From: Chitinophagaceae bacterium
Lineage (GTDB): Bacteria; Bacteroidota; Bacteroidia; Chitinophagales; Chitinophagaceae
DNA: 64,000 bases
Direction: 5' to 3'
NCBI GenBank assembly: GCA_027489035.1
Contig: JAIYAN010000001.1
Coordinates: 124,001-188,000, forward strand
The translations under genes and the position numbers were made by a program. The notes beneath the pieces were generated by a model. That model was not told the origin of the DNA and searched no databases. It saw nothing but the letters and a program-made list of their open reading frames with translations. Numbering within the stretch: the stretch's first letter is position 1; every line of letters begins with the position of its first letter. Shown piece by piece: positions 5,381-24,841 of this stretch.

Positions 5381-5860
5381 TTAAAATGGAATTTTAGGAT
5401 AAGGAATAAACTCTGATGCTATCTTCACTAGAGCAGGAGATATAACGAAAGACAACGATATTAATATAACAGCATGTATGATGGCTAATTCAATATTATT
5501 TTTCAGTAATTCATCTTCTTCTTTCTCAGGTGTAAGCAATCCTACGACTAAATAACTTAATCTAAATAATAAAATTGAGAATACCCACATTCCTGCGAAA
5601 AAAGAAAAAGCAAACAAAATCGAAGATCCAAAATTACCTGATTTTAGAAAAAACCTCACAGTATCGGCTGTCAAATCAGCAATATGTATTAGGTTTACTG
5701 AAGCTGAAATCAATGATGCGATAAAAACAATTAATACCGCATTGTTTTTTTTTGGCTGACTCAAATGTTGAAAAAATCGATGTTGGATTTTCGCAAAAAA
5801 GAAAAGATAAAGTAAGCCCAAGCTTAATAATGATACCAAATTGATAATTTCATTTTTCAT
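5381..5860 (-). CDS. Four-TM membrane protein, DUF350-like (module A)
   Basis: This 159-residue protein consists of four hydrophobic helices in two similar pairs, as in DUF350 (UPF0719) proteins, which are built from an internal repeat of two helices. It matches the 168-residue protein at 18142-18648 in length, helix spacing and the shared C-terminal E/A-x-I-P-Y-P motif, and it occupies the same position in its operon. It starts 19 bp after the stop of the transglutaminase-like gene. No catalytic residues are apparent. DUF350 proteins are inner-membrane proteins of unknown function often encoded with other membrane-integrity genes. The DUF350 label is my reading of the pattern and is moderately secure. 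The paralogy with 18142-18648 is more secure. Confidence 0.7.
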   Translation of the reverse strand: MKNEIINLVSLLSLGLLYLFFFAKIQHRFFQHLSQPKKNNAVLIVFIASLISASVNLIHIADLTADTVRFFLKSGNFGSSILFAFSFFAGMWVFSILLFRLSYLVVGLLTPEKEEDELLKNNIELAIIHAVILISLSFVISPALVKIASEFIPYPKIPF

Positions 5861-5879
5861 AATTTATAGTATTGATTTT

Positions 5880-6803
5880 TTATAAATGAACTACAACCCA
5901 ATTATTCCATGTGTTCCAAACATGTTGTCCCAACTCATTTCCTGGAGAAGTTGCTTCCCATGCGTAAAATTTATTTCTAGTAATATCAGTTACATATCTG
6001 TTGGTGTAAGGTGGATTCAATATGTTTACACCCAACATTGCATGAGTTCCTGCATCAACTTCCCCAATTAACATTTCAGCTTCATAAAATCCTAAGTTTA
6101 ATTCTTTTAATATTGTGCAAGCGAACAATGATTTAGTATCACAATCACCAGACCCATTTACTGCGTATTCGATAGGTGAATATACCCCCCATGGTAACAC
6201 AAAACCGCAACACCCATCAGGTTGATTTTTTCTTGGTCTGCAATCATTAGTAAACCTAACACCAAATGCATTATCTGGACAATCTTCAGGTGTTATTAAT
6301 ACATAAGGAATACTTTGAACACTTGAAACTACCATATTTAAAGCTTCAATCCCGTTTAGATTGTTTTTTATGATTATATTTTTGTACTCATTTACCATTT
6401 GTTTTAAACCTGATTTATCATTATTGTACATCTTCGACCATATCTCAACTCCAGCACTAGAAGACTCTCTGCAACTTGAAGATTTTGAATAATCAGATCG
6501 TTTTATTTTAAAATTCAAAGTATAATTTTTACCATCATAAGATTCCCACCTCCATGTCCTAACATAAAAATCATCATTATTCTTTAAGGAAGTATCTTTT
6601 TTAATTTCACTTGAATCTTCTTTTACAATTTCCTCCTCCCAATTTACCTTACTCAAAGAATCTTCAACAATAATATCTCTTGCCGTATTTTCACCATTGA
6701 AAATTCCAGGATTTAGTTTCAAAAGCGCGAAAACAGTTACAAGCAAAATGAGGCCCCAAAACAATTTACTGCCTATTGAAAAATAATTGTTTTTTTTGCC
6801 CAT
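5880..6803 (-). CDS. Membrane-anchored transglutaminase-like cysteine protein (module A)
   Basis: A single N-terminal TM helix (about residues 12-30) anchors a periplasmic or extracytoplasmic domain of the transglutaminase/papain-like fold. The presumed catalytic Cys is C221 in GSGDCDTKSLFA, the His is H254 in GTHAMLGV and the acidic residue is E283 in YAWEATSPG. The third residue of the triad is therefore Glu rather than the usual Asp. Extra cysteines (C-G-F, PEDCPD, NDCRPR) probably form disulfides. The closest relative in this window is the C-terminal half of the protein at 18712-20352, which shares the run V-Q-x-I-P-Y and GDCDT[KR]S. Transglutaminase-like proteins of bacteria are often proteases or peptidoglycan-acting enzymes, but the substrate here is unknown. 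The gene follows the DUF4407-like gene with a 1-bp gap. Confidence 0.75.
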   Translation of the reverse strand: MGKKNNYFSIGSKLFWGLILLVTVFALLKLNPGIFNGENTARDIIVEDSLSKVNWEEEIVKEDSSEIKKDTSLKNNDDFYVRTWRWESYDGKNYTLNFKIKRSDYSKSSSCRESSSAGVEIWSKMYNNDKSGLKQMVNEYKNIIIKNNLNGIEALNMVVSSVQSIPYVLITPEDCPDNAFGVRFTNDCRPRKNQPDGCCGFVLPWGVYSPIEYAVNGSGDCDTKSLFACTILKELNLGFYEAEMLIGEVDAGTHAMLGVNILNPPYTNRYVTDITRNKFYAWEATSPGNELGQHVWNTWNNWVVVHL

Positions 6804-6804
6804 T

Positions 6805-7737
6805 TTAAATTGACGCTTTCAGTTTTTTTGTTTTTGTGAATTTGATTTCCTTATTCTTCACCTCTTGAATGATTTTCTGACAAAGTTTTTGAGTATGCAA
6901 ATAGTGATAAAATGTAATCGTAATTTCACTCAAGGCCAACTCTCGCATATACTCACTTTGTTTTATTTCTTTACTTTTAAAAACCAATGCCAATGGAATT
7001 AAAAAAATAATCAAGAAAATAATATCCATAACTACTTTCCAATATCCCAACCCTCTTTCTAAAATATCAATCGCCAAGAGTAAAGAATTGGCATTGAAAA
7101 TATAGAATTGGTCATTGGGGCCAGGCGTTAAAATATTTTCCACCATCCAGGTTTCACCATGAGAAATATATTGGTTTTTCAGCTGTTCCAACACATCATT
7201 GATTTGATTTTTGAAAATAAACAACTCAATACCGGTTGCAAATACAATAGCTATAATCGATAAAATAACTATCCTCAATGTCATTGTTAGGACATCTGAA
7301 AACTTTAATTGCTTGCGTCCAATATCCATTTGTGATTTCTCTCTCAATTTCTCTTTACTGATGGCAACTATTTCTTGTATTTTCTCATCACTAACATTCG
7401 TCATATCACTGCCAATCTCATGATGTTCTGCATAATGTTTTTCATGATCAACGTAAAATTCTTCCAATGAACTTCCTGAAACATCTAATGCTGTCATAAC
7501 AAATAGCCTGTATAAATTAAATACCACAAGCGCTAAAAAAAATCCAACACCAATTGCTATCCACCAATTGTGAAAAACAATAAGTGTGTATAATATGCTG
7601 GAGAAAAAACAAATCAGTGATACGATAAGTAACATTATGGTTAATGACGACAGAATAAAGGTCTGCCGTTCATTTAGCTTAGGATCTACTTTTTTTAATA
7701 AATCCCTATCAACACCGATTTGTAAATGCCAACTCAT
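6805..7737 (-). CDS. Four-TM membrane protein related to DUF4407 (module A, second membrane subunit)
   Basis: The 310-residue protein has TM helices at about residues 29-52, 57-80, 150-172 and 235-258, and a charged region between helices 2 and 3. The second helix ends in VVFNLYRLFVMTA. This corresponds in position to the IVFNLDRFIVSS signature of the DUF4407 protein encoded next door, but the Asp is replaced by Tyr and the glycine-rich STGKGDG tail is missing. It is therefore probably a diverged partner of the DUF4407 subunit. The equivalent in module B is the protein at 21700-22914. The gene lies 3 bp after the OmpA gene, so translation is probably coupled. No enzymatic motif is visible. 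Confidence 0.65.
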   Translation of the reverse strand: MSWHLQIGVDRDLLKKVDPKLNERQTFILSSLTIMLLIVSLICFFSSILYTLIVFHNWWIAIGVGFFLALVVFNLYRLFVMTALDVSGSSLEEFYVDHEKHYAEHHEIGSDMTNVSDEKIQEIVAISKEKLREKSQMDIGRKQLKFSDVLTMTLRIVILSIIAIVFATGIELFIFKNQINDVLEQLKNQYISHGETWMVENILTPGPNDQFYIFNANSLLLAIDILERGLGYWKVVMDIIFLIIFLIPLALVFKSKEIKQSEYMRELALSEITITFYHYLHTQKLCQKIIQEVKNKEIKFTKTKKLKASI

Positions 7738-7740
7738 AAA

Positions 7741-8853
7741 TTAATACTTAACTATTTTTATCTCAACACGCATGTTTCTGTTATATTTATTTCCGTTAGG
7801 ATCTGTTTCTAAATAATCTTCCGGAACCAAAGGTTTTGTATTTCCTAAACCTACTGTGCTTAACCTACTTTCATCGATACCTTTATCAATCATCAATTGT
7901 TTGACGCGGTTAGCTCTATCTTTATCTAAGTTTGGATTTGCAACATTTCCAGAACCATTATAAAACCCTTGAATTTCTAAATTTAAACTTGGGTACTTAT
8001 TTAGTATTTCAACAATATGGTTTATTTCATCTGCTGAATAATCTCTAATATCAGTGGTCCCTCCATTAAAGAAAATTTGGCTTGAAAGATTATTAAGTTC
8101 ATTTTGAATTTTTTCTTGTTCTAATCTTTTTTCACACAAACTATCTTTTTCAGAAATGATTTTTTTTAATCGTTCAATTTCAATCAATAAAGACTCATTT
8201 TTTTTCATACAAGTGGAATCCACATCAACTGGCACAGGATCTTGTTCTAAAATATTTCTAAATGATTTGCATTGTTTTAATAATAATAGTAGCAACAGTA
8301 ATAACAACAACCATTTTAAAATATCCCAAATCCTAGTAAAACAACCATTGTTTCCACCTCCAGTAATTATGGGAGGTACCCATCCTCCCCCAATTGGATT
8401 TGGATTGGTTCCCCCTCCAATAGGTGGTGGCGGAATTATAGGCTTTGTTGGATCTGTTGGCGCAGTTATAGAAGATAGTTTTTTAATTTTTCCAACGAGT
8501 TGTCCTTTTAAAATGCCATAAGTTTTATCATTCACTTCCCATGAATTTACAACCTCAACATTTTTTAACACAATCTGGTCAAAATCATAAATCTTTTTTT
8601 CTGTTAATGGCGATCCTGCTCCTGGATGTAATTGAATATTGGTGACATTGTGAAGCAATAGTCCATCACGATTCAAATGTTCTTCAGGCTTGTAAAAATC
8701 AATTGTTTGCACATTCGTCAACTCGCCTTTATACAGATGTACATTATGCAATCCCCCTGTAGGCGTTTGTTCCCCCTGAATTAGTGCATTCTTTTGATGA
8801 GTAAAAAAATACCCTTCAAAATCCCCAGTAACATGATTTAAATTATTACCCAT
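7741..8853 (-). CDS. Cytoplasmic beta-domain / TM / OmpA-like peptidoglycan-binding protein (module A)
   Basis: Domains in order are: an N-terminal soluble, beta-rich domain (about residues 1-125); a Pro/Gly-rich linker with repeated PPPIGGG-type units (about 130-170); one very Leu-rich TM helix (about 180-195); a coiled-coil segment (about 215-250); and a C-terminal OmpA/MotB-type domain (about 255-370). The OmpA domain shows the family features N-L-E-I-Q-G-F, LDKDRANRVKQLMIDKGI and RLSTVGLGNTKP. The canonical GHTD is altered to GFYNGSGN. There is no signal peptide, so the N-terminal domain should stay in the cytoplasm while the OmpA domain binds peptidoglycan. The module B equivalent is 20372-21697. 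Confidence 0.85.
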   Translation of the reverse strand: MGNNLNHVTGDFEGYFFTHQKNALIQGEQTPTGGLHNVHLYKGELTNVQTIDFYKPEEHLNRDGLLLHNVTNIQLHPGAGSPLTEKKIYDFDQIVLKNVEVVNSWEVNDKTYGILKGQLVGKIKKLSSITAPTDPTKPIIPPPPIGGGTNPNPIGGGWVPPIITGGGNNGCFTRIWDILKWLLLLLLLLLLLKQCKSFRNILEQDPVPVDVDSTCMKKNESLLIEIERLKKIISEKDSLCEKRLEQEKIQNELNNLSSQIFFNGGTTDIRDYSADEINHIVEILNKYPSLNLEIQGFYNGSGNVANPNLDKDRANRVKQLMIDKGIDESRLSTVGLGNTKPLVPEDYLETDPNGNKYNRNMRVEIKIVKY

Positions 8854-8865
8854 TTAATAAATGAA

Positions 8866-10125
8866 TTATGATTGGGGCTCGTCTGGTTTAATAAACGATT
8901 CCGGATTTTTTGCAATTTCTTGTTTTTCCTTTTCTGCAAATTGAGTAATCGCCTCTTTGGCATTCTCTTCTTCTTTGGCATTCTGGTGCTCTACAATGGC
9001 AATGATCCGTTTAGGATTAAAGTTTTCTTTTAATTTATGAATTTGAGAATGCTCATCTGTCATATGTTTCAAACTAATACCTTGTTTGGCTTCTAATATC
9101 TGATTGACATTTTCACCCATATAATCATAAGGAGATTTAATCAACATCAATTTCAATAATACTGGGGCAATTTCAATTATCATAAATAGAAGACGGACTA
9201 GCCAAATAGGCCAAAAAGCAGAACCATATATCTCTTGTTCTGAACCTTTTATTACTTCATTTGTAGCAGGATCAAATTTAGGGACAGTTTTGCCTTGGCT
9301 TGATAACCTCTCAATCATCATAATTTCATCTAAAAATCCAGGCTTCGATTCTTGAGTAAGCCTAATTACTGAATCTTGCTTTGATTTTATTAGATTTTCA
9401 TTAGTCCGCTGTACGTTTCTTAAGGAATCTCTTTCATGTTCTATTACTGTAAGTTTTATGGTTTCTTTATCTAATAAATCTTTCATTGCTTTAGCTTCAG
9501 GTCCAATACCTCTACCGCCACGCATCCCAGTTGCTTCTTCCTCATATGCTTTTGCTCTTTCAGTTACTATCATTTGCTGACTAACTGCATCAGATTCAAG
9601 TTTTGTTACCTTATCATTCAATTCTTTATTATGTTCATTTTCAATTTGAGCAATTTCATATTTCTTACTAAGTGATAATTGATCCATCGATAATTTCCAT
9701 TCCCTTTGAATTTCATTATGAAAAATTCTAGTCTCTAATGGCGCAGATATTGTCAATCCTAATAAAATGGCCATACACAATCTTGGAAACGCATTTAGCA
9801 ATTCTTTTATGCTAATAGAAGATTCTCCATCTCCTTTACCTGTGCTAGATACAATAAATCTATCTAAATTAAAAACAATCAATGCCCAAACCAATGCAAT
9901 AGGAATGGTAGCATACCAGCTGTTAAAAATTGTGTGAATGGCGAAACCCATAGCAAGTGCTGCCATAAAACCTGTGGCAAGCACCACTCCACCTATCCCT
10001 ACATATTTTACATGATCGGAGTAGCTTGAGTATTGAAGAATTTTTTTATCAGCACCGGCGCACCACCATAAAAATCGGGTTCCAGCATGAGCAGGCTTTG
10101 CTACGTAATCAACATGTTCATTCAT
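8866..10125 (-). CDS. DUF4407 membrane protein with coiled coil (module A)
   Basis: The 419-residue protein has all features of the DUF4407 family. The N-terminal signature TRFLWWCAGADKK lies near residues 17-29. Two TM helices lie at about 40-63 and 72-92, and the second ends in IVFNLDRFIVSSTGKGDG. A third TM helix (about 115-133) follows, then a long coiled coil (about 140-270). A fourth TM helix lies near 298-320, and the tail is charged and helical. It is clearly paralogous to the protein at 22921-24210, with identical signature motifs. The function of DUF4407 is not known to me. The buried Asp in NLDR next to a long coiled-coil stalk recalls ion-coupled membrane stators, but that is inference only. 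Confidence 0.9.
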   Translation of the reverse strand: MNEHVDYVAKPAHAGTRFLWWCAGADKKILQYSSYSDHVKYVGIGGVVLATGFMAALAMGFAIHTIFNSWYATIPIALVWALIVFNLDRFIVSSTGKGDGESSISIKELLNAFPRLCMAILLGLTISAPLETRIFHNEIQREWKLSMDQLSLSKKYEIAQIENEHNKELNDKVTKLESDAVSQQMIVTERAKAYEEEATGMRGGRGIGPEAKAMKDLLDKETIKLTVIEHERDSLRNVQRTNENLIKSKQDSVIRLTQESKPGFLDEIMMIERLSSQGKTVPKFDPATNEVIKGSEQEIYGSAFWPIWLVRLLFMIIEIAPVLLKLMLIKSPYDYMGENVNQILEAKQGISLKHMTDEHSQIHKLKENFNPKRIIAIVEHQNAKEEENAKEAITQFAEKEKQEIAKNPESFIKPDEPQS

Positions 10126-10149
10126 ATTGTTTTGTTTTTTGTTTGTTGG

Positions 10150-10911
10150 TTATGAATTGGATAAATCTATTTTTTGATATTTTTTTGTACTAAAAGTATA
10201 CGATTTCATTAATCGGGAATCATCTAAATTTTTATATAGTTTTTTCCTATTCATATTTGCATGAATAAGTTTGTCTGTAACAATTTTTGAATTTGCCGGT
10301 TTAAGTAAATGAGTCCTTAGCCAATCATTCATTTTAAATAGTTTCCCTTGGGTATATTTTTGAACAATAATATTAGCTTCTGTGGTAGGCATTACGCTAA
10401 CTTTGGGCGCTGTTCGAATTATATTATTTGAATATTCTGAAATAGGTGTTGTATCTATTATATAAATCTTATCAACTGGGATATTGATTTCAGCAGTCAA
10501 TTTCTTTCCCCAAAAGCCATGGGCAGTGAGTGTATATTTAGTTACATTTGGATCTATTAAAACTTCAGCAGCATTCCCCTTTAGCTTAACTCCAACAGGA
10601 TTAATGTCTATTCTATATGCACCGTCAACTTTCCAATAAATCTTAAGTTTTGTACCACTTATAAAAATATCATCATTGGGCAGGTCTAAATAAATATCAT
10701 TTCCATTTTCATCTTTTCCTGCATAAATATTTTGTTCAACACTATATTCAAAAAAATGAATTTCAAACTTTTTTCTTAATACAATTTGTCTTAAATATTT
10801 TATTATAATTTCTGTATAGGGAATCAATGCTAAAATTGAAGCAATGATGAGGAAGTATTTCATACCCTCAGCTGTACCCATTTCTGACATCCATTTAAAT
10901 AACGATTCCAT
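10150..10911 (-). CDS. Membrane-anchored protein with Ig-like beta domain (module A)
   Basis: One TM helix near residues 18-38 is followed by a basic stretch. A beta-rich domain of about 110 residues then carries the pattern G-T-K-L-K-I-Y-W-K-V-D-G-A, seen in many Ig-like folds that begin with a 'W-x-v-x-g-A' strand. The C-terminal 80 residues are basic and lack clear features. It leads the DUF4407-OmpA part of module A, 24 bp upstream of the DUF4407 gene. Its positional counterpart in module B is the protein at 24221-24841, which has a similar early strand (HGQYFRIDYDVSN), but sequence similarity is weak. No enzymatic motif was found. Confidence 0.6.
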   Translation of the reverse strand: MESLFKWMSEMGTAEGMKYFLIIASILALIPYTEIIIKYLRQIVLRKKFEIHFFEYSVEQNIYAGKDENGNDIYLDLPNDDIFISGTKLKIYWKVDGAYRIDINPVGVKLKGNAAEVLIDPNVTKYTLTAHGFWGKKLTAEINIPVDKIYIIDTTPISEYSNNIIRTAPKVSVMPTTEANIIVQKYTQGKLFKMNDWLRTHLLKPANSKIVTDKLIHANMNRKKLYKNLDDSRLMKSYTFSTKKYQKIDLSNS

Positions 10912-10922
10912 TATTAATTATT

Positions 10923-11876
10923 TTATGTCAACCCGATTATTGACGTCGCTTTAAATGAATTCCAATCAAATGCTCCGATTACAGTTGGTTGTGTTGTTTC
11001 GAGCAGTAAATATTCATTATTTTCAAATATAACAGATTCGCCTGAAATACCCAAATTTGAAACTGCAGCCATCATATGTGCGCCATTTGTTTTGTCATTC
11101 TGAGATTTTACAAGACAGGTAACCAATACAATATTTTGTATTGGTATTAAATTAACAAGAATGGAAGCAAAAAAAACGGATTTGCTGTCGCAATCTCCAT
11201 ATCCCAATATTAATGTTTCAGGTGGAACGCCAAGTTCATGATAATACCAATCATTAGTATCTAAATTGGGGCAGCCATAAGGAATAAATTGTACAAAATT
11301 CAACGCAGCCTGAACCCTATTAAAATATGAATCATTTCCATTTTTTGCTAAATCAGAAAAAATTTGTTGTGCTATTAAATTAGAAAAATCGGCATATTTC
11401 AAAACCAGATATTTATAATCAATTCCAGCGTCGCTAAATGAATTAAAATACCAACCATCTTTATTCATATTTGTCACAAATTCACTTTCACTATTTGAAG
11501 TATTTAAGGTATACCCATCCCCAGTTTTTTCAATTAAATGATTCTGTAAGCCGTAAAAATCCACCTGTTGTGAAACATCATTTGGGTATAAAGTGATTTC
11601 AAATACACCAATTTCATTATGAAATAGTGGATATTCGTATCTAAAAATAGCTTTGTCATTTATTTTTTTCCCAACTAAAGATTTATTGTAAGATGAAAAG
11701 CCTTCTGGTATTCTACGATAGTTTTTTGTCTTGGTTTTGTGTTGAGTTAGAAATTCAATTAATAAAAGATCGTTGTCTATTTTGTAAGACTTGTCCAATT
11801 TGATGTAACTATCAAAGAATCCAGATAAGTAAATAATACAAAGAAGAATAAATAACGCTATTATGTAAACTTGCAT
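10923..11876 (-). CDS. Membrane-anchored transglutaminase-like cysteine protein, first gene of module A
   Basis: An N-terminal TM helix (residues 2-20) is followed by about 165 residues of unknown fold and then a transglutaminase-like domain. The putative catalytic residues are C229 (GYGDCDSKS), H267 (NGAHMMAAV) and E293 (LLLETTQP). They have the same C-H-E order as the other two transglutaminase-like proteins of the window, although the flanking sequence is much more diverged. This gene has no counterpart at the head of module B. It is 11 bp upstream of the next gene in the operon and diverges from the lipoprotein-like gene at 11932. The target is unknown. Confidence 0.7.
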   Translation of the reverse strand: MQVYIIALFILLCIIYLSGFFDSYIKLDKSYKIDNDLLLIEFLTQHKTKTKNYRRIPEGFSSYNKSLVGKKINDKAIFRYEYPLFHNEIGVFEITLYPNDVSQQVDFYGLQNHLIEKTGDGYTLNTSNSESEFVTNMNKDGWYFNSFSDAGIDYKYLVLKYADFSNLIAQQIFSDLAKNGNDSYFNRVQAALNFVQFIPYGCPNLDTNDWYYHELGVPPETLILGYGDCDSKSVFFASILVNLIPIQNIVLVTCLVKSQNDKTNGAHMMAAVSNLGISGESVIFENNEYLLLETTQPTVIGAFDWNSFKATSIIGLT

Positions 11877-11898
11877 TTTAAATCGTAAAGTTATACAT

Positions 11899-14458: not shown

Positions 14459-15487
14459 ATGACCAAAAAGATTATTAGACTTTCAATTCTGTTAAGTTTT
14501 TTATTTATCAATAATTTAAAAGCTCAACAAAATTTACCAGATAAAGCTATAGAAATAAAATTCGGAATTTTTATAAAAAAAATAGTTCCTGATTTTAAAG
14601 AAAATAAATTTTATACTGAATTTTTTTGGTGGGCAAAGTATCCAAGTAATACTGGACTTGCAGATTCCGAAATCTTGAATTTACAATATGTCAATGGAAG
14701 TAATGTAGAGAATGGTACATTTTTTGAAGAAAAAGAAGACGATCCAAGGCCCATAGCTAATGGCGAGACTTATTGCGAAGGGTTTCATCAAGGTGATTTT
14801 TATTTCAATCCGGATTATACATATTATCCTTTTGATGAGCAAAAAATGGATATTCTTATTGAACATGCTATGGAAACAAGTGACAAAATAAAATTAATTA
14901 TTGATACCGCCGACTACCAGTTTTCTAAACAAAATCCTAGCTTATGGGGCTTATCAAATGATATTTTAAAAAATAAAACGGCAAGTTATAAAATCTTCAA
15001 ATCAGAAATTAAAACTGAAGATGGATTATACAATACGAATTTCGGTGATCCTGAATTCTCTGCAACTTCTAATTATAGTAGATTAAACACGAGTATATTT
15101 TTAAACAGAGCATTTACTCCTTATATAGCCAAACTTATTATTCCGATTTTCATCATTTTACTTTTGGTATATTTTGTATTTTTCTTACCTGCAGAAAAAA
15201 TTGATATCGCTGCCGGTTTAACGGTTACTTCATTGTTAAGTGCAATTGCATTTCAATTGTCTGTTTCTAGCGATATGCCTGATATTGGCTATATCATTTA
15301 TATAGACAAAGTGTTTTACACTTGCTATGCATTAATTGCACTTTCAATGGCTCAATCACTATGGACTTTTTATTTGGATAAAACAGAAGAACCTAAGAAA
15401 GTTAAGCTTGCTATAAGAATTGATATCATTTCAAGGTTTTTATTCCCTTTAATTTTCTTTGCTAGTTTAATTTTCTTTGCCTCATGA
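14459..15487 (+). CDS. Pentameric ligand-gated ion channel (prokaryotic Cys-loop receptor homologue)
   Basis: A signal peptide (about residues 1-22, ending LKAQQ) precedes an extracellular beta-sandwich domain with the family-wide YPFDEQ motif near residue 122. The membrane domain has the four expected helices. M1 is YIAKLIIPIFIILLLVY. M2 has the pore pattern A-A-G-L-T-V-T-S-L-L-S-A-I-A-F followed by a proline (D-M-P-D). M3 begins around YIDKVFYTCYALIAL, and M4 is the last hydrophobic stretch. There is no disulfide-forming Cys pair before YPFD, as usual in bacterial members such as GLIC and ELIC. The length (342) fits. It overlaps the next gene by 4 bp (ATGA), so the two are translationally coupled. 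The ligand and ion selectivity cannot be read from the sequence. Confidence 0.88.
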   Translation: MTKKIIRLSILLSFLFINNLKAQQNLPDKAIEIKFGIFIKKIVPDFKENKFYTEFFWWAKYPSNTGLADSEILNLQYVNGSNVENGTFFEEKEDDPRPIANGETYCEGFHQGDFYFNPDYTYYPFDEQKMDILIEHAMETSDKIKLIIDTADYQFSKQNPSLWGLSNDILKNKTASYKIFKSEIKTEDGLYNTNFGDPEFSATSNYSRLNTSIFLNRAFTPYIAKLIIPIFIILLLVYFVFFLPAEKIDIAAGLTVTSLLSAIAFQLSVSSDMPDIGYIIYIDKVFYTCYALIALSMAQSLWTFYLDKTEEPKKVKLAIRIDIISRFLFPLIFFASLIFFAS

Positions 15488-16530
15488 AAAACAACAGGAT
15501 AGTAGCTATTGATTTTCTAAGGAGTGTTTCTATAGTGATAATGATAATGGCAAATTCTGCAGCATACGTGTTGGAAAAGCCACATTCATTATTATTAAGA
15601 TTTATTTTTTCTTTAGCCGCGCCTACATTTATTTTTTTATCCGGGTATTCATTCAATATTTCTTTTAAAAACAAATTCTCGATAAAAGATAAATACTTAA
15701 CTGGGATTTTCTTACTAATCACAGCAGCTTGTATTGATGTTTTTATATGGCACATCTACCCTTTTTGCACTTTTGATGTATTGTATCTCATTGCTTTTGG
15801 AATAATCATAAATACACTAATTGCAAATTGGCATTACAACTCTAAATTGATTTTAATTTTAATTCTAATTATATTTCATTTGATTTGTCTTCGAATAATT
15901 AATTACAGATTTGAAATCACCGAAATTGAAATCAGTGAAAATCCGAGGACTGTTTTAAATATTTTCATAAATGACATTCAAATTTGGAAGCGTTTTTTAT
16001 TTGATGGATGGTTTCCTGTATTCCCGTGGCTTGCTTTTGCTATTGCAGGGAATGTCGTTGCGGAAAGAACAGCATCGATTATTAATAATAAAACCATTTA
16101 CAGTGTAACTTCTGCATTTATTATTTTGTGTGGAATTCTGCTTTTCATCAATTTAACGCCTACCCAACTTGAAAGAGATGATTATCTAGAATTATTTTAT
16201 CCGCCAAATGCTTTTTTCATTGCAACAGTAACTGGTTTATTGATTTTCTCTATTGTATTTTCATACAGAATAAACAAAACCACAAGCAAATTGATGCTTA
16301 CTTTTTGCGAACTTGGTAAAAAAAGCTTGTTTGTTTATATTTTACATGCTGCCGTAATTTCTTTTTACATCAGCAATACAGGCCCATTCAATCCACTCGA
16401 ATTTTCGATGGTATGTATACTATTTATTGTATTCTGCCTTTTGATTGTTTTAGTAATCAATTTTCTTAAAAAAAAGGAATTACTAACATTCATCCCAATA
16501 TTTATTTTAAAAATATTGGGTTTAAAATAA
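15484..16530 (+). CDS. Polytopic membrane protein of the DUF1624/HGSNAT-like acyltransferase group
   Basis: The 348-residue protein has about ten hydrophobic helices. It begins with RIVAIDFLRSVSIVIMIMAN, close to the 'R-x-x-x-I-D-x-x-R-G/S' start shared by DUF1624, YeiB and heparan-alpha-glucosaminide acetyltransferase-like proteins. A P-T-F-I-F-L-S-G-Y-S motif near residue 50 and the GWFPVFPWLAFAIAGN segment near residue 178 fit the same group. Such proteins transfer acyl groups across membranes to sugars or other acceptors. The substrate is unknown. The ATG overlaps the stop of the ion channel gene, which implies a functional partnership. A hairpin lies at the 3' end. Confidence 0.75.
   Translation: MKNNRIVAIDFLRSVSIVIMIMANSAAYVLEKPHSLLLRFIFSLAAPTFIFLSGYSFNISFKNKFSIKDKYLTGIFLLITAACIDVFIWHIYPFCTFDVLYLIAFGIIINTLIANWHYNSKLILILILIIFHLICLRIINYRFEITEIEISENPRTVLNIFINDIQIWKRFLFDGWFPVFPWLAFAIAGNVVAERTASIINNKTIYSVTSAFIILCGILLFINLTPTQLERDDYLELFYPPNAFFIATVTGLLIFSIVFSYRINKTTSKLMLTFCELGKKSLFVYILHAAVISFYISNTGPFNPLEFSMVCILFIVFCLLIVLVINFLKKKELLTFIPIFILKILGLK
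16494..16520 (+). terminator. Hairpin inside the 3' end of the acyltransferase gene
   Basis: CCCAATATTT (16494-16503) and AAATATTGGG (16511-16520) make a perfect 10-bp stem with a 7-nt loop, followed by TTTAAAAT. It ends 10 bp before the end of the reading frame. It could be an intrinsic terminator overlapping the gene end, or an attenuator between this gene and the next. The following U-tract is poor. Confidence 0.35.
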
Positions 16531-17786: not shown

Positions 17787-17799
17787 TAATCAATTTATT

Positions 17800-18117
17800 T
17801 TATTGAAATATTTTAGCTGAATCTCTTGTTGAAACGTAATATACGATGATATCCGCTTCCTCTTTTTTATCCACTTTAAAAAGACTTACAGCATCTCTGA
17901 AAAGTTGTTGATTCTTTACAATGTACCATTCGCCTGGCTTTCTGATATCAGTTGGACCGGTTACTTTATAAATCCATTGATTTGCTTGTTTGGGATTATT
18001 AGAAATAAATACCCTAAATTTTGCTTGATATGGGTTTTTAATAAATTTTACAGATTGGGCAGAGGATGTATTAAAATACAACCCACACAAAATCATCAAC
18101 AAAATCCTCAAACGCAT
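17800..18117 (-). CDS. Small secreted DUF6150-like protein (module B)
   Basis: A signal peptide (about residues 1-20, ending SSAQS) precedes an 85-residue mature part. This part has repeated strands of the form Q-A-x-x-x-V-F or A-D-I-I-V-Y-Y, the internal-repeat pattern I associate with DUF6150 of Bacteroidota. It should be periplasmic or surface-exposed. Its last 19 codons survive as a decayed copy at 5135-5194, so the gene belonged to the ancestral duplicated operon. It lies 24 bp downstream of the four-TM gene. The function is unknown. Confidence 0.65.
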   Translation of the reverse strand: MRLRILLMILCGLYFNTSSAQSVKFIKNPYQAKFRVFISNNPKQANQWIYKVTGPTDIRKPGEWYIVKNQQLFRDAVSLFKVDKKEEADIIVYYVSTRDSAKIFQ

Positions 18118-18141: not shown

Positions 18142-18648
18142 TTATCGAATTTGCAATATAGATGGATATGGAATAAGCGCTTCGCATAAGTGACCAATGT
18201 AGTCATCCATAATCAATGATAACCCCAAAATTAAGGCTGCAGAAATTAAGGCAGTTGGAATATTATTTAGTTTAATTTGCTCCCACTCATTTATCTGTGT
18301 AAGTTGAAAGAAAATAAAAACTGAAGAAGCTATTACTGCAAGTGTAAAAATTATTCCAATGATTACAAAAACGACCACGTAAGCTAATGAAATCAGAAAG
18401 CTTTGCATGTTAAAAGCACCAGCTTTATTTAAATACTGAATGGCATTTACAGCTGCGCTTAACACAGATGATAAAATTAATGACCCCGATAAAACAATAC
18501 CTACCTGAAAAATAGCGAATGCAGTATTGGTTTCTTCAATCTGAAATCTTTTGCGCATAAAATAATTCAATAGTCTATACAACAAAAAAAGTGCACCTAG
18601 ACCTGAAACAAATGCGATAAGAACTTGAATGATGATAATTGATTTCAT
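18142..18648 (-). CDS. Four-TM membrane protein, DUF350-like (module B)
   Basis: The 168-residue protein has four TM helices at about residues 4-26, 44-66, 82-110 and 130-150, arranged as two similar pairs. The second helix of each half is rich in small residues, as in DUF350. The C-terminus A-L-I-P-Y-P corresponds to E-F-I-P-Y-P in the module A paralogue (5381-5860). It lies 63 bp after the transglutaminase-like gene. No enzymatic motif is present. I infer an inner-membrane accessory subunit of the module. Confidence 0.7.
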   Translation of the reverse strand: MKSIIIIQVLIAFVSGLGALFLLYRLLNYFMRKRFQIEETNTAFAIFQVGIVLSGSLILSSVLSAAVNAIQYLNKAGAFNMQSFLISLAYVVVFVIIGIIFTLAVIASSVFIFFQLTQINEWEQIKLNNIPTALISAALILGLSLIMDDYIGHLCEALIPYPSILQIR

Positions 18649-18711
18649 ATTTAATTTGATTTATTTTTTATGTTTATTTAATGGTGATTAAGCAATGTTT
18701 ATAATTTGTAA

Positions 18712-20352
18712 TTAATGATTATAATAGATGCTTACATCCCAATTGTTTGCATTATTATTTTCTGGAGCCACCATGCCCAATCTAAAACCTTTTGCCGTTA
18801 ATTCAACTCCATAGTGTTTAACTCCATTCACATTTTTATAAATACCAAATCCAACAGGTACACCAACGCCTAGAATACTATGTCCATAAGCTTCACTAAT
18901 CCATACAGAGCTTGCAATGTTTAATTCTTTTAAAATTGAAAAAGCTAATAAGCTTCTGGTATCGCAATCTCCTTTTAAATTATGTAAAAATTCATATGGT
19001 GATTGAACCCCGGCCGCAATATCAGGTAAGCAAGGTTTTCGTTCTTGATGATACTCAAGCATAAATGAATTTCCACTTTGCATGGCTTCGTTACAACTAC
19101 CTTCATGAACCAAATAATAAGGTATTTCCTGAACAAAGGTTGTAACCATTTCAGCAGTTTGAGCTGCATCCATATTTTTTTTAGTGGCAGAATCGCTGAA
19201 TATTTTTGCGATTTTCCTTATTTTATCCTGATCTATTTCAAACAATCCTGCATAGAATTGTGTGTAGAAATCTAGAGAAGAATTATACTGTGTTATTTTA
19301 TTTTTCAATTCATCTTGTTCTGAGGTTGAATTGTTAAAATCAGTAGTTGACGTATTGTATTTTGCTGTGTAAAAAGCATTGGAAAAATCGTACCAATTCA
19401 CTTCTTTTTCAGTTATCTCATCGTCTATTTTACCATCTCCATTCGTATCTGTTTTTTTGGGAGGTGCTATTTTAATATTTCCATCTTTGTTTTTAGTAGA
19501 TCTTAAACCAGAGCTGCTATCATAGAATAATTTAAAAATAAAATACCCAATAAAACCCAGTAACAAAAGTGAACCAATAAAACTAATGATTCTTCCAAGA
19601 TTAACAAATCTTGTAATCAACCAAATAATACCTAAACCTGCTAAAATATTAAAAAGAGGTCTATTGGAATTCCATAAATAGAATAGTAATAAAAGTAAAA
19701 TTATAAATAGCAAGATACCCGATATCCATTTTGACCATCGTCCGATAGATTTAGAAATGGGTATAGTTTGATTTATTGCAGTGTTGCCATTCCCACTTAA
19801 GTTATTGCCGCTATTCTCATTCTGAAAAATCAGTTCAGATTCATTTCCGGAAAAATTATTAAGCCCTGCTACTTGATTGTCTTTATTAATTATTACTTGA
19901 GTTTGATTTTGGTTTCCCCAATTATTTACTCCGGATACATTATTATCTTTCTTAGCTATTTCTTCTTTTATTTTTTTTGTTGGTTCTAATTGAAAATAAA
20001 TATCTCCAACAGCTTCTCTCCAATCAGCGCCAATAAGCGATGCTTGGTCTTTTTTCAAATCAATATTTTTAATTAAAACATTGTAGATAGTTCCTGAAAA
20101 AAAACGATCAACTCCAACTGGAATAAATATTTCAGTCTTTTTTCCGAATTTCCAAAATTTTCTTGGGGATATTTTTTTGTAAAATCTATAGTCATGCGTT
20201 TTTTGTGACTCCGGATCAAAATCAGCTATATTCTCTAAATCGGTAATTTCTATATATTTCCAATCAAAATCTGAATGCACATAATTACCAGCATGATTGC
20301 TGTTCCTTTTTTTAAAAATACCCTTAAATTTCGCTTTTATAAATGGTGACAT
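18712..20352 (-). CDS. Large membrane-anchored transglutaminase-like protein (module B)
   Basis: The ATG at 20350-20352 is preferred; a TTG nine bases upstream is also possible. Domains in order are: a cytoplasmic beta-rich domain (about 1-125); an Asn/Gly-rich low-complexity linker (about 140-200); three closely spaced TM helices (about 210-285); a short DTNGDGKIDDE segment that looks like a calcium-binding loop; and a periplasmic transglutaminase-like domain. The putative catalytic residues are C463 (KGDCDTRS), H491 (YGHSILG) and E517 (GVELTA). The C-terminal half is homologous to the shorter protein at 5880-6803, which lacks the cytoplasmic domain. It lies between the OmpA and DUF350-like genes. 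The substrate is unknown. Confidence 0.78.
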   Translation of the reverse strand: MSPFIKAKFKGIFKKRNSNHAGNYVHSDFDWKYIEITDLENIADFDPESQKTHDYRFYKKISPRKFWKFGKKTEIFIPVGVDRFFSGTIYNVLIKNIDLKKDQASLIGADWREAVGDIYFQLEPTKKIKEEIAKKDNNVSGVNNWGNQNQTQVIINKDNQVAGLNNFSGNESELIFQNENSGNNLSGNGNTAINQTIPISKSIGRWSKWISGILLFIILLLLLFYLWNSNRPLFNILAGLGIIWLITRFVNLGRIISFIGSLLLLGFIGYFIFKLFYDSSSGLRSTKNKDGNIKIAPPKKTDTNGDGKIDDEITEKEVNWYDFSNAFYTAKYNTSTTDFNNSTSEQDELKNKITQYNSSLDFYTQFYAGLFEIDQDKIRKIAKIFSDSATKKNMDAAQTAEMVTTFVQEIPYYLVHEGSCNEAMQSGNSFMLEYHQERKPCLPDIAAGVQSPYEFLHNLKGDCDTRSLLAFSILKELNIASSVWISEAYGHSILGVGVPVGFGIYKNVNGVKHYGVELTAKGFRLGMVAPENNNANNWDVSIYYNH

Positions 20353-20371
20353 TTTTAACAATTGTGCTTAA

Positions 20372-21697
20372 TTAATTTCCTGTTGATTGCTTTGAATCTT
20401 CATTTTTTATTTTCGATCTTTTTGTACTTACAAATTCAGTTTCTGTCAATTTAACCTCAACCCTTCTATTCATAAGTCTACCCTCTAAAGTATTATTATC
20501 CCCTTTGGGCTCTTTATCTCCCTTACCTTCTGCATTAAGTCGTGACTCTTGAACACCAAGACTAGATAAAAACCGCTTGACACTTTCTGCTCTTCTTTGA
20601 GACAATTGAAGGTTTGCTTCTGGTTTTCCTACATTATCTGTATGACCATAAATAGTGGCATTCAATGAATCATTTTTTATGAGATACTCTGCAAGTTTTT
20701 GAAGATCATTCGCTGAAGACGGCACTAGTTTATCACTGTTCGTGTAAAATTGAACATTAGGCAGACTAACGGTTTCATAATTTACGCGCGTTGTTGAATC
20801 AACATAAGACAGTGTATCGCTTTTGATTATAGTTAGTGTATCAACTCGGTCTTTGATTACCTCAACTTTAATTGTATCGTGAATTATTATTGGTGCTGTA
20901 TTATTTTGATTTTTATTACAACCTGACTGATTTAATAGCCAATATAATAACCCAGCCAACAAAAGCAATAAAAGCGGAATAAAACATCCTGAAGAAAAAC
21001 ACCCTCGATTTTTAGCTGCTCCAAAACAACCCGCATTAGTATTTGGGCTAAGGTTCATCCCAGATAATTCTGTTCTTCTTTTTCCATATATGAATGGAAA
21101 AAGACCAAAGGTATTGGCTAATTTACCTATATTAGTTTGGCTGAAATCCTTAATTTCTTGAATTTTATTCCTTTCAATTACTTCTTCATCGAGCAATGGA
21201 ACATCATCGTCATTTAGGTGAATTGCTTCTTTACAATAGGCTATGCCTTTTATTTTTCCGTGTGTTGGATTAACCAACATGGCATTAAACGACGAGTAAT
21301 AAGTTTCTATCCCATCTTTTTCATCCAAGTATGTTTCAAATGGATACTTCCCTCCTTCTGTTTTTTGATCTAAAGGTTTTAAACCAGTATGCTCATTTTC
21401 TAGGAATAAAATAATCTCAGATATTTTTACAACTTTTGTTTTATCTTTTGATTGTTGATCGAGTTTGAAACTCATTTCAACATCACTTTTTTCATTGGAA
21501 TTTATGTAAGGATTTTCTAAAAGTAATTTTTCATCAGGGAACTCAGATTCCTCAATCAATTCAACCTGATCCATCCTGTATCTGGGTTCGAGTTTAAATC
21601 TGGATTGCTTATAGTTTGTTACACCAAGCTTTTTTTGATCTTGTGTAATAAACTGACACCTAAGAAACCCTTTGTAATATTTATATTTTATTTTCAA
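20372..21697 (-). CDS. Cytoplasmic domain / TM / OmpA-like peptidoglycan-binding protein (module B)
   Basis: An N-terminal soluble domain of about 235 residues is followed by a Gly/Cys-rich stretch and one Leu-rich TM helix (about 245-262). A short periplasmic spacer leads to a canonical OmpA domain near residues 315-425. The OmpA motifs are intact: YGHTDNVG, LSQRRAESVKRFL and GRLMNRRVEV. There is no signal peptide, so the topology is N-terminus inside. The frame starts with TTG at 21695-21697, only 3 bp after the preceding stop codon; the first ATG would remove about 42 residues. The equivalent in module A is 7741-8853, whose OmpA ligand-binding loop is altered. This copy therefore looks better able to bind peptidoglycan. 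Confidence 0.85.
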   Translation of the reverse strand: MKIKYKYYKGFLRCQFITQDQKKLGVTNYKQSRFKLEPRYRMDQVELIEESEFPDEKLLLENPYINSNEKSDVEMSFKLDQQSKDKTKVVKISEIILFLENEHTGLKPLDQKTEGGKYPFETYLDEKDGIETYYSSFNAMLVNPTHGKIKGIAYCKEAIHLNDDDVPLLDEEVIERNKIQEIKDFSQTNIGKLANTFGLFPFIYGKRRTELSGMNLSPNTNAGCFGAAKNRGCFSSGCFIPLLLLLLAGLLYWLLNQSGCNKNQNNTAPIIIHDTIKVEVIKDRVDTLTIIKSDTLSYVDSTTRVNYETVSLPNVQFYTNSDKLVPSSANDLQKLAEYLIKNDSLNATIYGHTDNVGKPEANLQLSQRRAESVKRFLSSLGVQESRLNAEGKGDKEPKGDNNTLEGRLMNRRVEVKLTETEFVSTKRSKIKNEDSKQSTGN

Positions 21698-21699
21698 TT

Positions 21700-22914
21700 T
21701 TAAATTAAAGGTTTAGTAATTGATGTTGTTAATTCATCCTTATCTAATTCATTACGCAATTTGAAATGCTGACTCTTCTGTGTACAGTATGGCGGATTTT
21801 CCCAAATAATGGTTTCATGTCCTATTGGTGGCGTATATTGAAAGTTATCCTGAAGAAATCTTAAAATTTGTTTTTGGTTGTCAACATATTTTTCTTCAAT
21901 TCGTTGTTTATAATATTTGGTTGAAAGATCAGCATAAACAAATTTCTTATTGGTTTTTAATCTAAATAAAATAAGATGCGGGTTAATTAAAAGCAAGGCT
22001 ATTAAAATAAAAGCCATAATAAAAAACGGAAATTTTGTGACCGCTTTGAATGAGTGCACAATAAAATAACGATTAGAAATATCTTCCCTAAATGCCATTA
22101 ATTTTGATTCGAAATCTTGATTATGTTTATTAATAACATCAGATAATTGTTGATTTAACTTATTTAGTTGAGCTGATTTATCTTTTAATAGTCCATTCTG
22201 TTGATTAATTTCATTTTCTGTGTTTTTTATTGTTGCTTTTAAATAGGCTGTTTCCATCTCTAGAGATTCCTGGTCATCTTGGATAAATTGATTAATATAA
22301 GCATCTCGTTTTAGTTCATTAGTCTCCTTTATTTTGTTAAAATGCAATAAACAAACCAATGGAAAAAGAACCAATAATCCAATAATAGTGAGGATAGAAA
22401 ATCTAATTATCCCCGTCAGAATTGGAATTGGGGAATCATACTTTAAAAATTTAATTTTAGTGAAAGAAGTGAGAAACCGCTTCGATTTTTGATTGATGTT
22501 ATTAATTTTATTTGCAAAGTTATTTTGAACTAATAGCTCATTTGAAGATGTAGTGCCGTTTCCTTCAGGCAAATTATTTTCTACTATTTCTACCTTTTCA
22601 ATTTTTTCTACTTTTTCTACTTTTTTTTCTGGCTTTATTTTTTCTAAGTCAAAAATTGACTTCCTTAAAATCACCAATGAAAATCGAAGAATACTACCTA
22701 TCACAAAAGCTAAAACTAATCCGAATGGAATTGAGATAAAAATAGATGATGTAATTAAATACAGAAGGGTAATCCCTGAAGTAATCGCCAGGATCATAAA
22801 AAATACAAAAAATAAAAATGCCCAGATATACATCTTCTGTTCACCCTTGGGCGTTTCTTCCCAAAGCTGTTTTTCCAAACCAAACATCGAAATAGTTAAA
22901 GAATTTAAAAGCAT
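21700..22914 (-). CDS. Multi-TM membrane protein related to DUF4407 (module B, second membrane subunit)
   Basis: The ATG at 22912-22914 is preferred to the TTG six bases upstream. Two TM helices (about 28-50 and 54-80) are followed by a Lys/Glu-rich segment with repeated K-V-E-K-I/V-E units (about 90-115), a third TM (about 165-185), a coiled coil (about 205-265) and a fourth TM (about 280-300). The second helix carries I-P-F-G-L-V-L-A-F, equivalent to the DUF4407 segment before N-L-D-R, but the NLDR and STGKGDG motifs are missing. It corresponds to the protein at 6805-7737, although here it precedes the OmpA gene instead of following it. Function unknown. Confidence 0.65.
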   Translation of the reverse strand: MLLNSLTISMFGLEKQLWEETPKGEQKMYIWAFLFFVFFMILAITSGITLLYLITSSIFISIPFGLVLAFVIGSILRFSLVILRKSIFDLEKIKPEKKVEKVEKIEKVEIVENNLPEGNGTTSSNELLVQNNFANKINNINQKSKRFLTSFTKIKFLKYDSPIPILTGIIRFSILTIIGLLVLFPLVCLLHFNKIKETNELKRDAYINQFIQDDQESLEMETAYLKATIKNTENEINQQNGLLKDKSAQLNKLNQQLSDVINKHNQDFESKLMAFREDISNRYFIVHSFKAVTKFPFFIMAFILIALLLINPHLILFRLKTNKKFVYADLSTKYYKQRIEEKYVDNQKQILRFLQDNFQYTPPIGHETIIWENPPYCTQKSQHFKLRNELDKDELTTSITKPLI

Positions 22915-22920
22915 AGTCAA

Positions 22921-24210
22921 TTAAGCATTGTTTGTTTCCATACTTTCGTTGCCCTCTGTGAAAAACTTATTGGGATCTTCACTGATTTGTTTACGTTTTT
23001 TATTTTCCCAATGCTCAATAATTTCTTTGTTTATTTTATCAGTAGAATTTACTTTATTTACTTTTTCATATTTCGCACTCTCTACATCTAAGTATCTCCA
23101 TTTCTCCATGTGAATGGCTCCATTTTTACTTTCATAAATGAAGTCTTCTCTAAAAATTCCATTTTCTACTTCTTTACGTTTGTTGTAATTTTCTACCAAG
23201 AAATCATAAACACCTTTAGTCATCATCATTTTAAAGAAGATTGGCCCCATTTCTATACAAAGAAAAACAAGTAAAATTACCCAAGGTACAATGCCACCTA
23301 TTTCATGACTGATTTGTATCCTTTTCAATAATCCATCATAACCATGGGATTTTTTTTCATTTTCAATATAGGATTTCCTTAAATCGTCTGATAGTTTGTT
23401 GAGTTGATCATTGTCAAAATTCAACTGCTTTTGAACTGCCTCTACCTCAGAACGTTTTAGTTCTATAAACTTTGCTTTTTCAGCCCTTTTGTTATCAATA
23501 TCTGCTTGCATTTTTTTGGCAACTGGTCCAAATCCATAAGCACGCTTGTCTTGCATTTCTGCTTGCTGTACTTTCACCAAATCATCAATTTGTTGGTCAA
23601 AACTGGCTAACTCTTTTTCGTATTGAAGTTTCTTATTTTCATATTCAGCCTTTTCTGTTTCTAATCCCAGTCGCTTTTGTTTAAATAAAGAATCCGTTTC
23701 TTTATTTAAATCCTGTGTGTACTTTTTTTGAAATGAACTCAATTCGGAATTTATTTCTGATTCTAAAATTTTTATCTCCAGCGGTGAAGAGATAGCGAAA
23801 CCCAAAATAAGTGCAATGATGATTCTAGGTAAAGCTTGAACAAATTCTTTACCCGTAATTGCATCTGTTCCATCCCCCTTACCGGTACTTGAAATAATGA
23901 ACCTATCTAAATTAAAAATAATCAGCCCCCAAACAATTGCAAAGGCAATTGTTGCGACTAATAATTCAATTGAAGATGTTAAAGAAGCATCATTTGCATC
24001 ACCTTTTGGTCCAAAAATTGTTGAAAATGCATAGCCTCCTGAAACGGCTGCTAAAAATCCAGTACATAATACAATACCTCCAATACCAGCATATTTTACC
24101 CTGTCTTGCATTGGCGACATATTCATAAAATAAGGATCTGCCCCGGCACACCACCATAGAAAACGAGTGAACTTACGAGGTTTATCAACATTGTAATCTT
24201 TTGTTTGCAT
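22921..24210 (-). CDS. DUF4407 membrane protein with coiled coil (module B)
   Basis: The 429-residue protein carries the same signatures as the module A copy: FTRFLWWCAGADPYF near the start, IIFNLDRFIISSTGKGDG after the second TM helix, and ISSPLEIKI after the third. A long coiled coil of about 150 residues follows, with Lys/Glu/Gln-rich heptads and a conserved YGFGPVAKKMQ patch. A fourth TM lies near residue 310 and the tail is charged. An insertion (GPKGDANDASL) lies between the first two TMs. This is the best conserved protein pair between the two modules, so it is probably the core of the machine. Its biochemical role is unknown. Confidence 0.9.
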   Translation of the reverse strand: MQTKDYNVDKPRKFTRFLWWCAGADPYFMNMSPMQDRVKYAGIGGIVLCTGFLAAVSGGYAFSTIFGPKGDANDASLTSSIELLVATIAFAIVWGLIIFNLDRFIISSTGKGDGTDAITGKEFVQALPRIIIALILGFAISSPLEIKILESEINSELSSFQKKYTQDLNKETDSLFKQKRLGLETEKAEYENKKLQYEKELASFDQQIDDLVKVQQAEMQDKRAYGFGPVAKKMQADIDNKRAEKAKFIELKRSEVEAVQKQLNFDNDQLNKLSDDLRKSYIENEKKSHGYDGLLKRIQISHEIGGIVPWVILLVFLCIEMGPIFFKMMMTKGVYDFLVENYNKRKEVENGIFREDFIYESKNGAIHMEKWRYLDVESAKYEKVNKVNSTDKINKEIIEHWENKKRKQISEDPNKFFTEGNESMETNNA

Positions 24211-24220
24211 ATGTTATTGT

Positions 24221-24841
24221 TTAATTATTTTTTGAATCGGAAATTAATTTGTCGAGTTCTGTATGATCGTTGATTATTAATGTTTTTTTGTCAAGCTGCA
24301 AATTTATGTCTTTACTTTTATTAAAAGAGGGTAAGCTAAACTTGGGAAGCTTATAATGAATGTCTATTTTAGCAACCTCTGGCTTTCTGATTGGGTTAAC
24401 TTCTATTTCAGGAGGTTTGCTGTTGATGAAATTAATTTTTAACCTAAATCGAAAAACTTTGATCCCCCGACCCAAGGCGATGATTTTCAAATTGGGATTA
24501 TAGGAATTGGTTAGATTTTCAAATTTACCTTTGGACTTTTTAAAGTATATTTTTTTATAAACCTTTAATAATTGTAAAAACCAATAAATGGGATTAACTA
24601 AATTTATAAAAGGTGAAATAATCTTTTGATAAATCGTATTAAAAACCCCTGTCTTTTTTTGAGGATAGTTGATTTTTTCAACTTTATCGCCATTATCATA
24701 TATAAAAATCAAAGCAAAGCAATTACTTACGTCATAATCAATTCTAAAATATTGACCATGAATCAAGTATGCTATTTCTGAATTATTTAATGAAAATGAG
24801 GCTTTCACTACTTCTTTTTTTTTAATATACGTTACTACCAA
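24221..24841 (-). CDS. Unknown protein at the head of module B; non-AUG start and no internal methionine
   Basis: The frame has no ATG at all: the longest start is TTG at 24839-24841, with a GTG about 12 codons later. The frame is also open for several codons upstream, adding a hydrophobic stretch. The 206-residue product has an early beta strand pair (HGQYFRIDYDVSN and LIFIYDNGD), a hydrophobic patch near residues 75-95 and a basic second half. It is the positional counterpart of the protein at 10150-10911. It overlaps the YidD gene by 17-18 bp if the TTG start is right. The family is not recognised. Confidence 0.5.
   Translation of the reverse strand: MVVTYIKKKEVVKASFSLNNSEIAYLIHGQYFRIDYDVSNCFALIFIYDNGDKVEKINYPQKKTGVFNTIYQKIISPFINLVNPIYWFLQLLKVYKKIYFKKSKGKFENLTNSYNPNLKIIALGRGIKVFRFRLKINFINSKPPEIEVNPIRKPEVAKIDIHYKLPKFSLPSFNKSKDINLQLDKKTLIINDHTELDKLISDSKNN

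Follow-up and report, generated by a model that had tools for sequence, protein, structure and literature searches.

What kind of system is built by two neighbouring operons of membrane proteins that share DUF4407, OmpA, transglutaminase-like (TG) and DUF350 genes? The question is raised by a stretch of 64,000 nt from a Chitinophagaceae bacterium (GCA_027489035.1, contig JAIYAN010000001.1, positions 124,001-188,000, forward strand), called the window throughout. As the original prediction had stated, two minus-strand operons, module A (11876 to 5381) and module B (24841 to 17800), hold the same protein types, a point on which open reading frames, Pfam, BLASTP and hhalign agreed. We found that they belong to a conserved operon family scattered across Bacteroidota, in which OmpA is optional, and that the OmpA branch of this family is linked to STAND/TPR genes far above the sampled background. 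Our tentative interpretation is that the operon of this branch may serve as the envelope arm of a STAND-linked anti-invader system.

The module genes, with intergenic gaps of 0-63 bases within each operon, are named A1-A7 and B1-B7 in reading order. The gathering cut-off of Pfam DUF4407 (PF14362) is 31.3 bits; TM denotes a transmembrane helix.

24221..24841, minus strand: B1, small protein without Pfam match, opens module B; 19 members including the window's
22921..24210, minus strand: B2, DUF4407, four TM; Pfam E 2.3e-55, 188.4 bits
21700..22920, minus strand: B3, second, divergent DUF4407-like membrane protein; 28.7 bits, under the cut-off; hhalign to DUF4407 98.5%
20372..21697, minus strand: B4, N-terminal domain, one TM, OmpA domain (Pfam over cut-off) with D354 and R369
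18712..20361, minus strand: B5, N-terminal beta domain, three predicted TM, TG-like domain with C466, H494 and E520
18142..18648, minus strand: B6, DUF350, four TM; Pfam E 9.7e-11
17800..18117, minus strand: B7, DUF6150, last gene of module B; among 57 loci only at L005 and L006
10923..11876, minus strand: A1, TG-like protein with N-terminal membrane anchor
10150..10911, minus strand: A2, one TM, then a beta-rich-looking domain; same position as B1
8866..10125, minus strand: A3, DUF4407; Pfam E 1.9e-56, 192 bits
7741..8853, minus strand: A4, N-terminal domain, one TM, OmpA domain (Pfam over cut-off); N where B4 has D354
6805..7737, minus strand: A5, second DUF4407-like membrane protein; Pfam 31.6 bits
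5880..6803, minus strand: A6, TG-like, single TM, triad intact
5381..5860, minus strand: A7, DUF350, four TM; Pfam E 2.8e-8

Module A has two TG-like proteins (5880-6803 and 10923-11876) and module B has one; none of the three matched a Pfam family. The four matches of the DUF4407 model in the whole genome all fall within the two modules.

Operon family, enzyme and membrane proteins

Scanning an alignment of TG proteins against genome contigs gave 57 loci, and the addition of further Bacteroidota stretches brought the set to 68 distinct TG loci (L097, which shares a contig with L013, was dropped). Flanks vary in length and several stop at contig ends. A DUF4407 pair, OmpA and TG lie in one run at 28 of the 68, and the DUF4407 pair and TG occur without OmpA at 11; the original prediction had staked itself on DUF4407, OmpA and TG being found together elsewhere, and they recur together in many genomes. 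The order DUF4407, second DUF4407-like gene, OmpA and TG was kept in one run at 27 of the 57 loci, with B1 before it in 18 and DUF350 after it in 24. All 15 pairings of the six genes co-vary, a result that includes near-identical copies and that any co-inherited genes would give.

The operon is accessory and co-inherited. In a family sample of 244 genomes, 12 had a strong TG match (a thirteenth was weak) and DUF4407 adjoined it in 11; in G470 the two lie on separate contigs. Among 395 sampled Bacteroidota genomes, TG was present in 8. Host labels include Chitinophagaceae, Flavobacteriaceae, Weeksellaceae, Cytophagaceae, Hymenobacteraceae and Leadbetterellaceae; many are metagenome bins and their species labels look unreliable. 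Viral or plasmid carriage found no support, since no TG or DUF4407 relative was confirmed in IMG/VR and no DUF4407 match was obtained in PLSDB, where TG was not searched. A tRNA-linked insertion site was likewise dropped, as tRNAs occurred in just 2 of 27 scanned loci.

TG and DUF350 form the most constant pair: 26 of the 68 loci, mostly from Aquimarina and other Flavobacteriaceae, hold just these two of the set (L006, L029 and L039 being cut by a contig end), and the remaining loci are two OmpA-TG contigs cut at their end and one TG alone. A peptide or polyamine conjugation module centred on this pair, comparable to the DUF350 operons that carry ATP-grasp ligases and PspA, would fit such constancy, and in other bacteria DUF350 accompanies a ligase related to glutathionylspermidine synthetase, according to the part of PMC11237479 used here. 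We nevertheless consider it improbable: the 30 largest neighbour clusters held no ATP-grasp, spermidine synthase or PspA look-alike, as judged by eye and with no model run. The operons of that report, as far as the part used describes them, do share with ours a DUF350 membrane protein in an envelope operon; the partners here, however, are a TG-like enzyme and DUF4407, PspA and ligase having been looked for by eye only.

The TG protein is likely a Cys-His-Glu enzyme of the transglutaminase-like (papain-like) superfamily, judging from residue conservation and fold. The triad was kept among relatives (C466 in 61/61, H494 in 60/60, E520 in 60/60) and also in the A1 family, where 117 of 120 listed relatives were aligned (three of 280 aa or less were left out) and the catalytic Cys was found in 116, His in 117 and Glu in 117. 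TG proteins model onto papain/transglutaminase folds. Some of them begin with a DnaJ domain, for which reason the enzyme domain is predicted to be periplasmic; the TM parity is itself predicted, and the L031 and L034 relatives have a shorter hydrophobic stretch. LapG and other transglutaminase-like cysteine proteases have the same fold and a Cys-His-acid triad. LapG is periplasmic, whereas the TG protein here is membrane-bound, has Glu as third residue and is encoded with DUF350 and DUF4407. In P0241, the closest homologue of A1 (98%), Gly replaces the catalytic Cys.

DUF4407 itself is far more widespread, exceeding the cut-off in 121 of the 395 genomes, and it stands alone more often than in the operon. 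Neither OmpA nor TG lay within up to 1.5 kb on each side of the 30 best DUF4407 loci. Stretches around DUF4407 hits were also picked by hand from hit lists in two sets of 20 regions; TG was absent from 17 of the first and 11 of the second, two of the 11 lying at contig ends. The operon DUF4407s form one clade (35 rows, support 96/99) with 19 other rows outside it, and this makes a single recruitment of DUF4407 into the operon likely. Every OmpA-type row (21) and every row lacking OmpA (11) falls in this clade, together with the two window copies and a copy at a contig end. Near-identical loci (L014, L016, L026, L027, L030), operon copies below 110 bits, other copies below 60 bits and lengths outside 330-480 were left out of this tree. 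In the parts of PMC10719396, PMC9603813 and PMC10551460 consulted, DUF4407 is mentioned in gene lists.

From a TM scan, a model and charges, B2 is predicted to carry a long helical hairpin between TM3 and TM4 on the periplasmic side. A Foldseek search with DUF4407 returned mostly ABC exporters, none better than E 0.028, with the VIA rows covering the helical hairpin only; its listing was without a MotA-type chain, which excludes nothing. In the OmpA domains of the operon, the positions of B4 D354 and R369, which we take to be the usual peptidoglycan contacts of this domain, hold D in 27 of 30 and R in 29 of 30. The domain is predicted to anchor a putative complex to peptidoglycan.

A multi-TM partner gene beside a TM-OmpA gene recalls Zorya (ZorAB), where an inner-membrane protein is encoded next to a TM-OmpA peptidoglycan-binding protein in a comparable defence-like setting, and the OmpA domain of B4 scores against ZorB models (E 5e-10). 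An ion-driven motor of the Zorya/MotAB type, with DUF4407 as stator and the OmpA protein as MotB/ZorB analogue, would account for both. We regard it as very improbable and rejected it because the acidic TM residue is not conserved: one lies in the TM core of the OmpA protein in only 1 of 30, that of module A. None of the four DUF4407-type proteins matched PADLOC ZorA (sequence models only), the operon adds TG-like, DUF350 and second DUF4407-like genes, and the DUF4407 hairpin is predicted to be periplasmic, unlike the cytoplasmic ZorA tail described in the portion of PMC11890865 used.

Two further features of these proteins were recorded. A Gly-Cys motif directly precedes the TM helix of 29 of the 30 OmpA proteins of the operon, and Gly-Cys also occurs within the first 330 residues of 38 of 66 TG proteins, possibly pointing to acylation or metal binding. 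At 16 loci (L045-L059 and L061, mostly Aquimarina), the TG-DUF350 pair comes after a presumed acyl-protein synthetase gene, and at 15 the pair is followed by a gene for a small secreted protein, presumably of the YHS-domain type.

STAND/TPR neighbours and candidate function

STAND/TPR genes lie upstream of module B in the window. NACHT and TPR parts are split between genes at 30810-41007 and fused at 42249-46862, and 55159-58818 encodes an Avs2-like protein with TPR:

30810..34343, minus strand: TPR1, STAND/TPR half protein, same family as TPR2
34343..35890, minus strand: NTP1, NACHT/NPHP3_N NTPase (NPHP3_N over cut-off), other half of the split STAND; one match in the genome
35887..37458, minus strand: NTP2, no family match; neighbours the operon at 4 of 27 distinct OmpA-type loci
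37468..41007, minus strand: TPR2, STAND/TPR family; TPR over cut-off
42249..46862, minus strand: STAND3, fused NACHT and TPR; NPHP3_N, NACHT and TPR over cut-off
55159..58818, minus strand: STAND4, Avs2-like NTPase region and TPR; TPR over cut-off

With flank profiles seeded from these genes, STAND/TPR relatives were found to flank 14 of the 27 OmpA-type loci, or 11 of the 15 where at least 9 kb lies downstream; 10 of the 14 are on the operon strand. Elsewhere the same profiles matched at 1 of 29 TG loci without DUF4407 (L020) and at 0 of 17 other DUF4407 loci. The first 400 aa of STAND4 had relatives in 8 of 17 other OmpA-operon genomes; contig and position place the match beside the operon in 7 of these. 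Among 286 sampled genomes there was no such relative. As the latter include G041, which has an OmpA operon, the comparison becomes 8/18 against 0/285 (Fisher 2.7e-11). Seven more genomes, picked partly because TPR2 had been seen in them, gave 8 matches in 5 genomes, 7 near the operon and one a short fragment elsewhere. Of the 395 Bacteroidota genomes, only G000 and G041 have the TPR2 type; each of the two also has the OmpA operon, near which all five TPR2 copies are located. The idea that NTP2 is an inactive STAND was unsupported (hhalign against NTP1 and STAND3, 0.4%).

What the data show is an operon of conserved order whose genes co-vary, whose TG proteins keep their triad, whose DUF4407s belong to a single clade and whose OmpA branch is linked to STAND/TPR genes. 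We infer that a wall-anchored inner-membrane enzyme complex may form the envelope arm of a STAND/NACHT-linked conflict system in the OmpA branch, a reading to which, taken as a whole chain, we give somewhat less than an even chance. The operon proteins would form one predicted inner-membrane complex held to peptidoglycan by the OmpA domain, with the N-terminal beta or DnaJ domain predicted to be cytosolic, followed by TM helices, the TG and OmpA domains outside and the DUF4407 hairpins in the periplasm. A disturbance would be relayed through the membrane parts by cytosolic STAND/TPR proteins or, in other subtypes, by DnaK that the DnaJ domain recruits, and the signalling could run in either direction (sensor or effector). 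The TG-like enzyme would then cleave or cross-link an envelope substrate near the wall, and the envelope would be altered or the infected cell killed. The bolder version, a new immune class in which split NLR-like STAND/TPR sensors drive a wall-anchored inner-membrane machine of paired DUF4407 coiled-coil proteins that unleashes a periplasmic TG on the envelope, gated by a built-in DnaJ domain in sister lineages, strikes us as doubtful.

A number of observations weigh against a role in defence. No STAND gene was found near the loci without OmpA (0/3 by profile and 0/8 more searched by BLASTP only), and 13 of the 27 OmpA loci have none in their available flanks, among them L024, L036, L038 and L042 with at least 9 kb downstream. 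STAND4 had no match anywhere in 10 of the 18 OmpA-operon genomes, G041 included. The 17 tested genomes were hand-chosen (8 with STAND4 seen at the locus, 9 without) and the test leaves out 9 further OmpA loci; they are mostly metagenome bins, and habitat may inflate the contrast. The TPR2 link rests on the window genome and one other, with p 0.0025 when the own genome is excluded. Full-length BLASTP queries including TPR matched STAND4 at 6 of the 29 TG loci without DUF4407, five of which were lost when only the non-TPR part was the query. Two of the 14 nearest STAND matches are fragments of 87 and 99 aa (L010 and L011), and the window's own STAND genes sit 6-34 kb upstream of module B. Searched against defence models at E 0.01, ten operon proteins gave a match for the OmpA domain of B4 only. 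The OmpA domain of module A has N instead of the contact Asp. Finally, one L101 protein (7195-10245) joins DUF4407 to Transgly and Transpeptidase domains, those of a peptidoglycan synthase, which fits work on the wall without defence.

This last protein suits a wall or envelope maintenance complex, in which DUF4407 pairs would scaffold peptidoglycan- or lipoprotein-modifying enzymes, here TG, and the STAND genes would merely be frequent island neighbours. We take this as a possibility deserving serious weight, if short of probable; the operon is rare and patchy, and its OmpA branch is tied to STAND genes well beyond the sampled background, neither of which maintenance would lead one to expect.

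Returning to the conflict-system reading, the closest described relatives differ in composition. STAND-type NTPases of Bacteroidetes are likewise combined with wall-proximal TM-OmpA effectors in the MoxR-vWA iSTAND ternary systems described by Kaur et al. (2020; PMC7159879). Here, though, OmpA is part of a fixed operon. The window does contain MoxR, vWA-like and LRR genes, but single-sequence seeds from them (E 1e-5) matched at none of 77 loci, on which ground such a system was rejected. bNACHT25 (PMC12169576) is a NACHT protein requiring the chaperone DnaJ to sense phage; here the TG membrane protein carries a J-domain of its own, and no STAND gene was seen near the subtypes that have it. The original prediction knew of no described system of this composition, and we too found no paper describing such an operon in the open-access literature searched.

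If the conflict-system reading is right, bacteria would possess an immune arm in the inner membrane that is coupled to NLR-like sensors and uses a TG-like enzyme as its tool on periplasm and wall, and DUF4407, a common Bacteroidota membrane family on which little has been written, would gain a first setting and a testable role. Even if the defence part is wrong, there would still be a conserved envelope operon of 4-6 genes with a catalytic subunit, undescribed in that literature.

Kinship of the two modules

The second membrane gene precedes the OmpA gene in B and follows it in A, as had been claimed. BLASTP related the modules through DUF4407 (A3-B2, 8e-61, 32% identity), TG (A6-B5, 2e-20), DUF350 (A7-B6, 6e-13), OmpA (A4-B4, 1e-11) and the second membrane protein (A5-B3, 7e-5). 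Profile comparison, on which the idea of paralogy had been made to depend, aligned A5-B3 (96.9%), TG (99.5%) and DUF350 (98.1%). The small extra genes directly before DUF4407 in each module, A2 (10150-10911) and B1 (24221-24841), are positional counterparts without detected kinship (hhalign 0.1%). The DUF4407 signatures had been called identical, but one residue differs, NLDRFIVSSTGKGDG in A versus NLDRFIISSTGKGDG in B.

The proposed tandem duplication was not supported. In the DUF4407 tree B2 is sister to the L005 copy of another Chitinophagaceae genome (87% identity, support 100/100), and in the TG tree B5 is likewise sister to the L005 copy (100/100). A3, on the other hand, is a long branch that splits off deep, at the base of the operon clade and beside its remaining copies; where exactly it belongs is uncertain because of the long branches. 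A6 is also a long branch, nearest L120. The TG tree leaves out L014, L016, L026, L027 and L030, proteins below 330 aa and most copies from TG-DUF350 pairs. On both trees we rejected a duplication of A and B in tandem, at least a recent or local one, with the caveat that A3 and A6 are long branches. The relatives of A1 are a family of their own (138 proteins at E 0.001), which marks module A, as judged from sequence, as a separate lineage. A better fit would be two lineages of old date, retained together or acquired as neighbours. There are also signs of gene exchange within operons, as the TG proteins of L024 and L025 are near-identical while their DUF4407s fall in different clades.

Distant kinship between the N-terminal domains of the OmpA and TG proteins is suggested by hhalign, which gave 87.6% for TG against the B-type OmpA protein, 72.9% for A4 against TG and 6.9% for A4 against the B-type OmpA N-domain. 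At L034 a gene for what by eye looks like this shared domain alone lies between OmpA and TG.

Further genes around the operons

Downstream of module A lie a CorA-like gene, a TrkA_N gene and a small gene (1721-5128):

3788..5128, minus strand: CorA-like, PADLOC 8e-13; relatives near the operon at 6 OmpA-type loci (5 distinct) and 2 others

The CorA-like and small genes occur together at L005, L006, L009, L013 and L020, and the domain of the small gene forms the end of a 989-aa protein in L034. Between the modules are a channel-like protein (14459-15487; Neur_chan_memb E 0.0035, below cut-off) and an HGSNAT-like acyltransferase (15484-16530); both recur in operon flanks at L017 and L042, with a channel relative at L120. 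Relatives of a 4HBT thioesterase gene (28329-28925) were found close to the operon at 8 distinct OmpA loci; at 7 of these they follow DUF350 within two genes. The DUF2201 vWA-like protein, the giant judged LRR-like by eye and the MoxR-like AAA gene of the window (47532-54411) form a possible separate system, and an AbiEii/AbiEi pair (58838-60476) is matched by PADLOC at 5e-99 and 8e-72.

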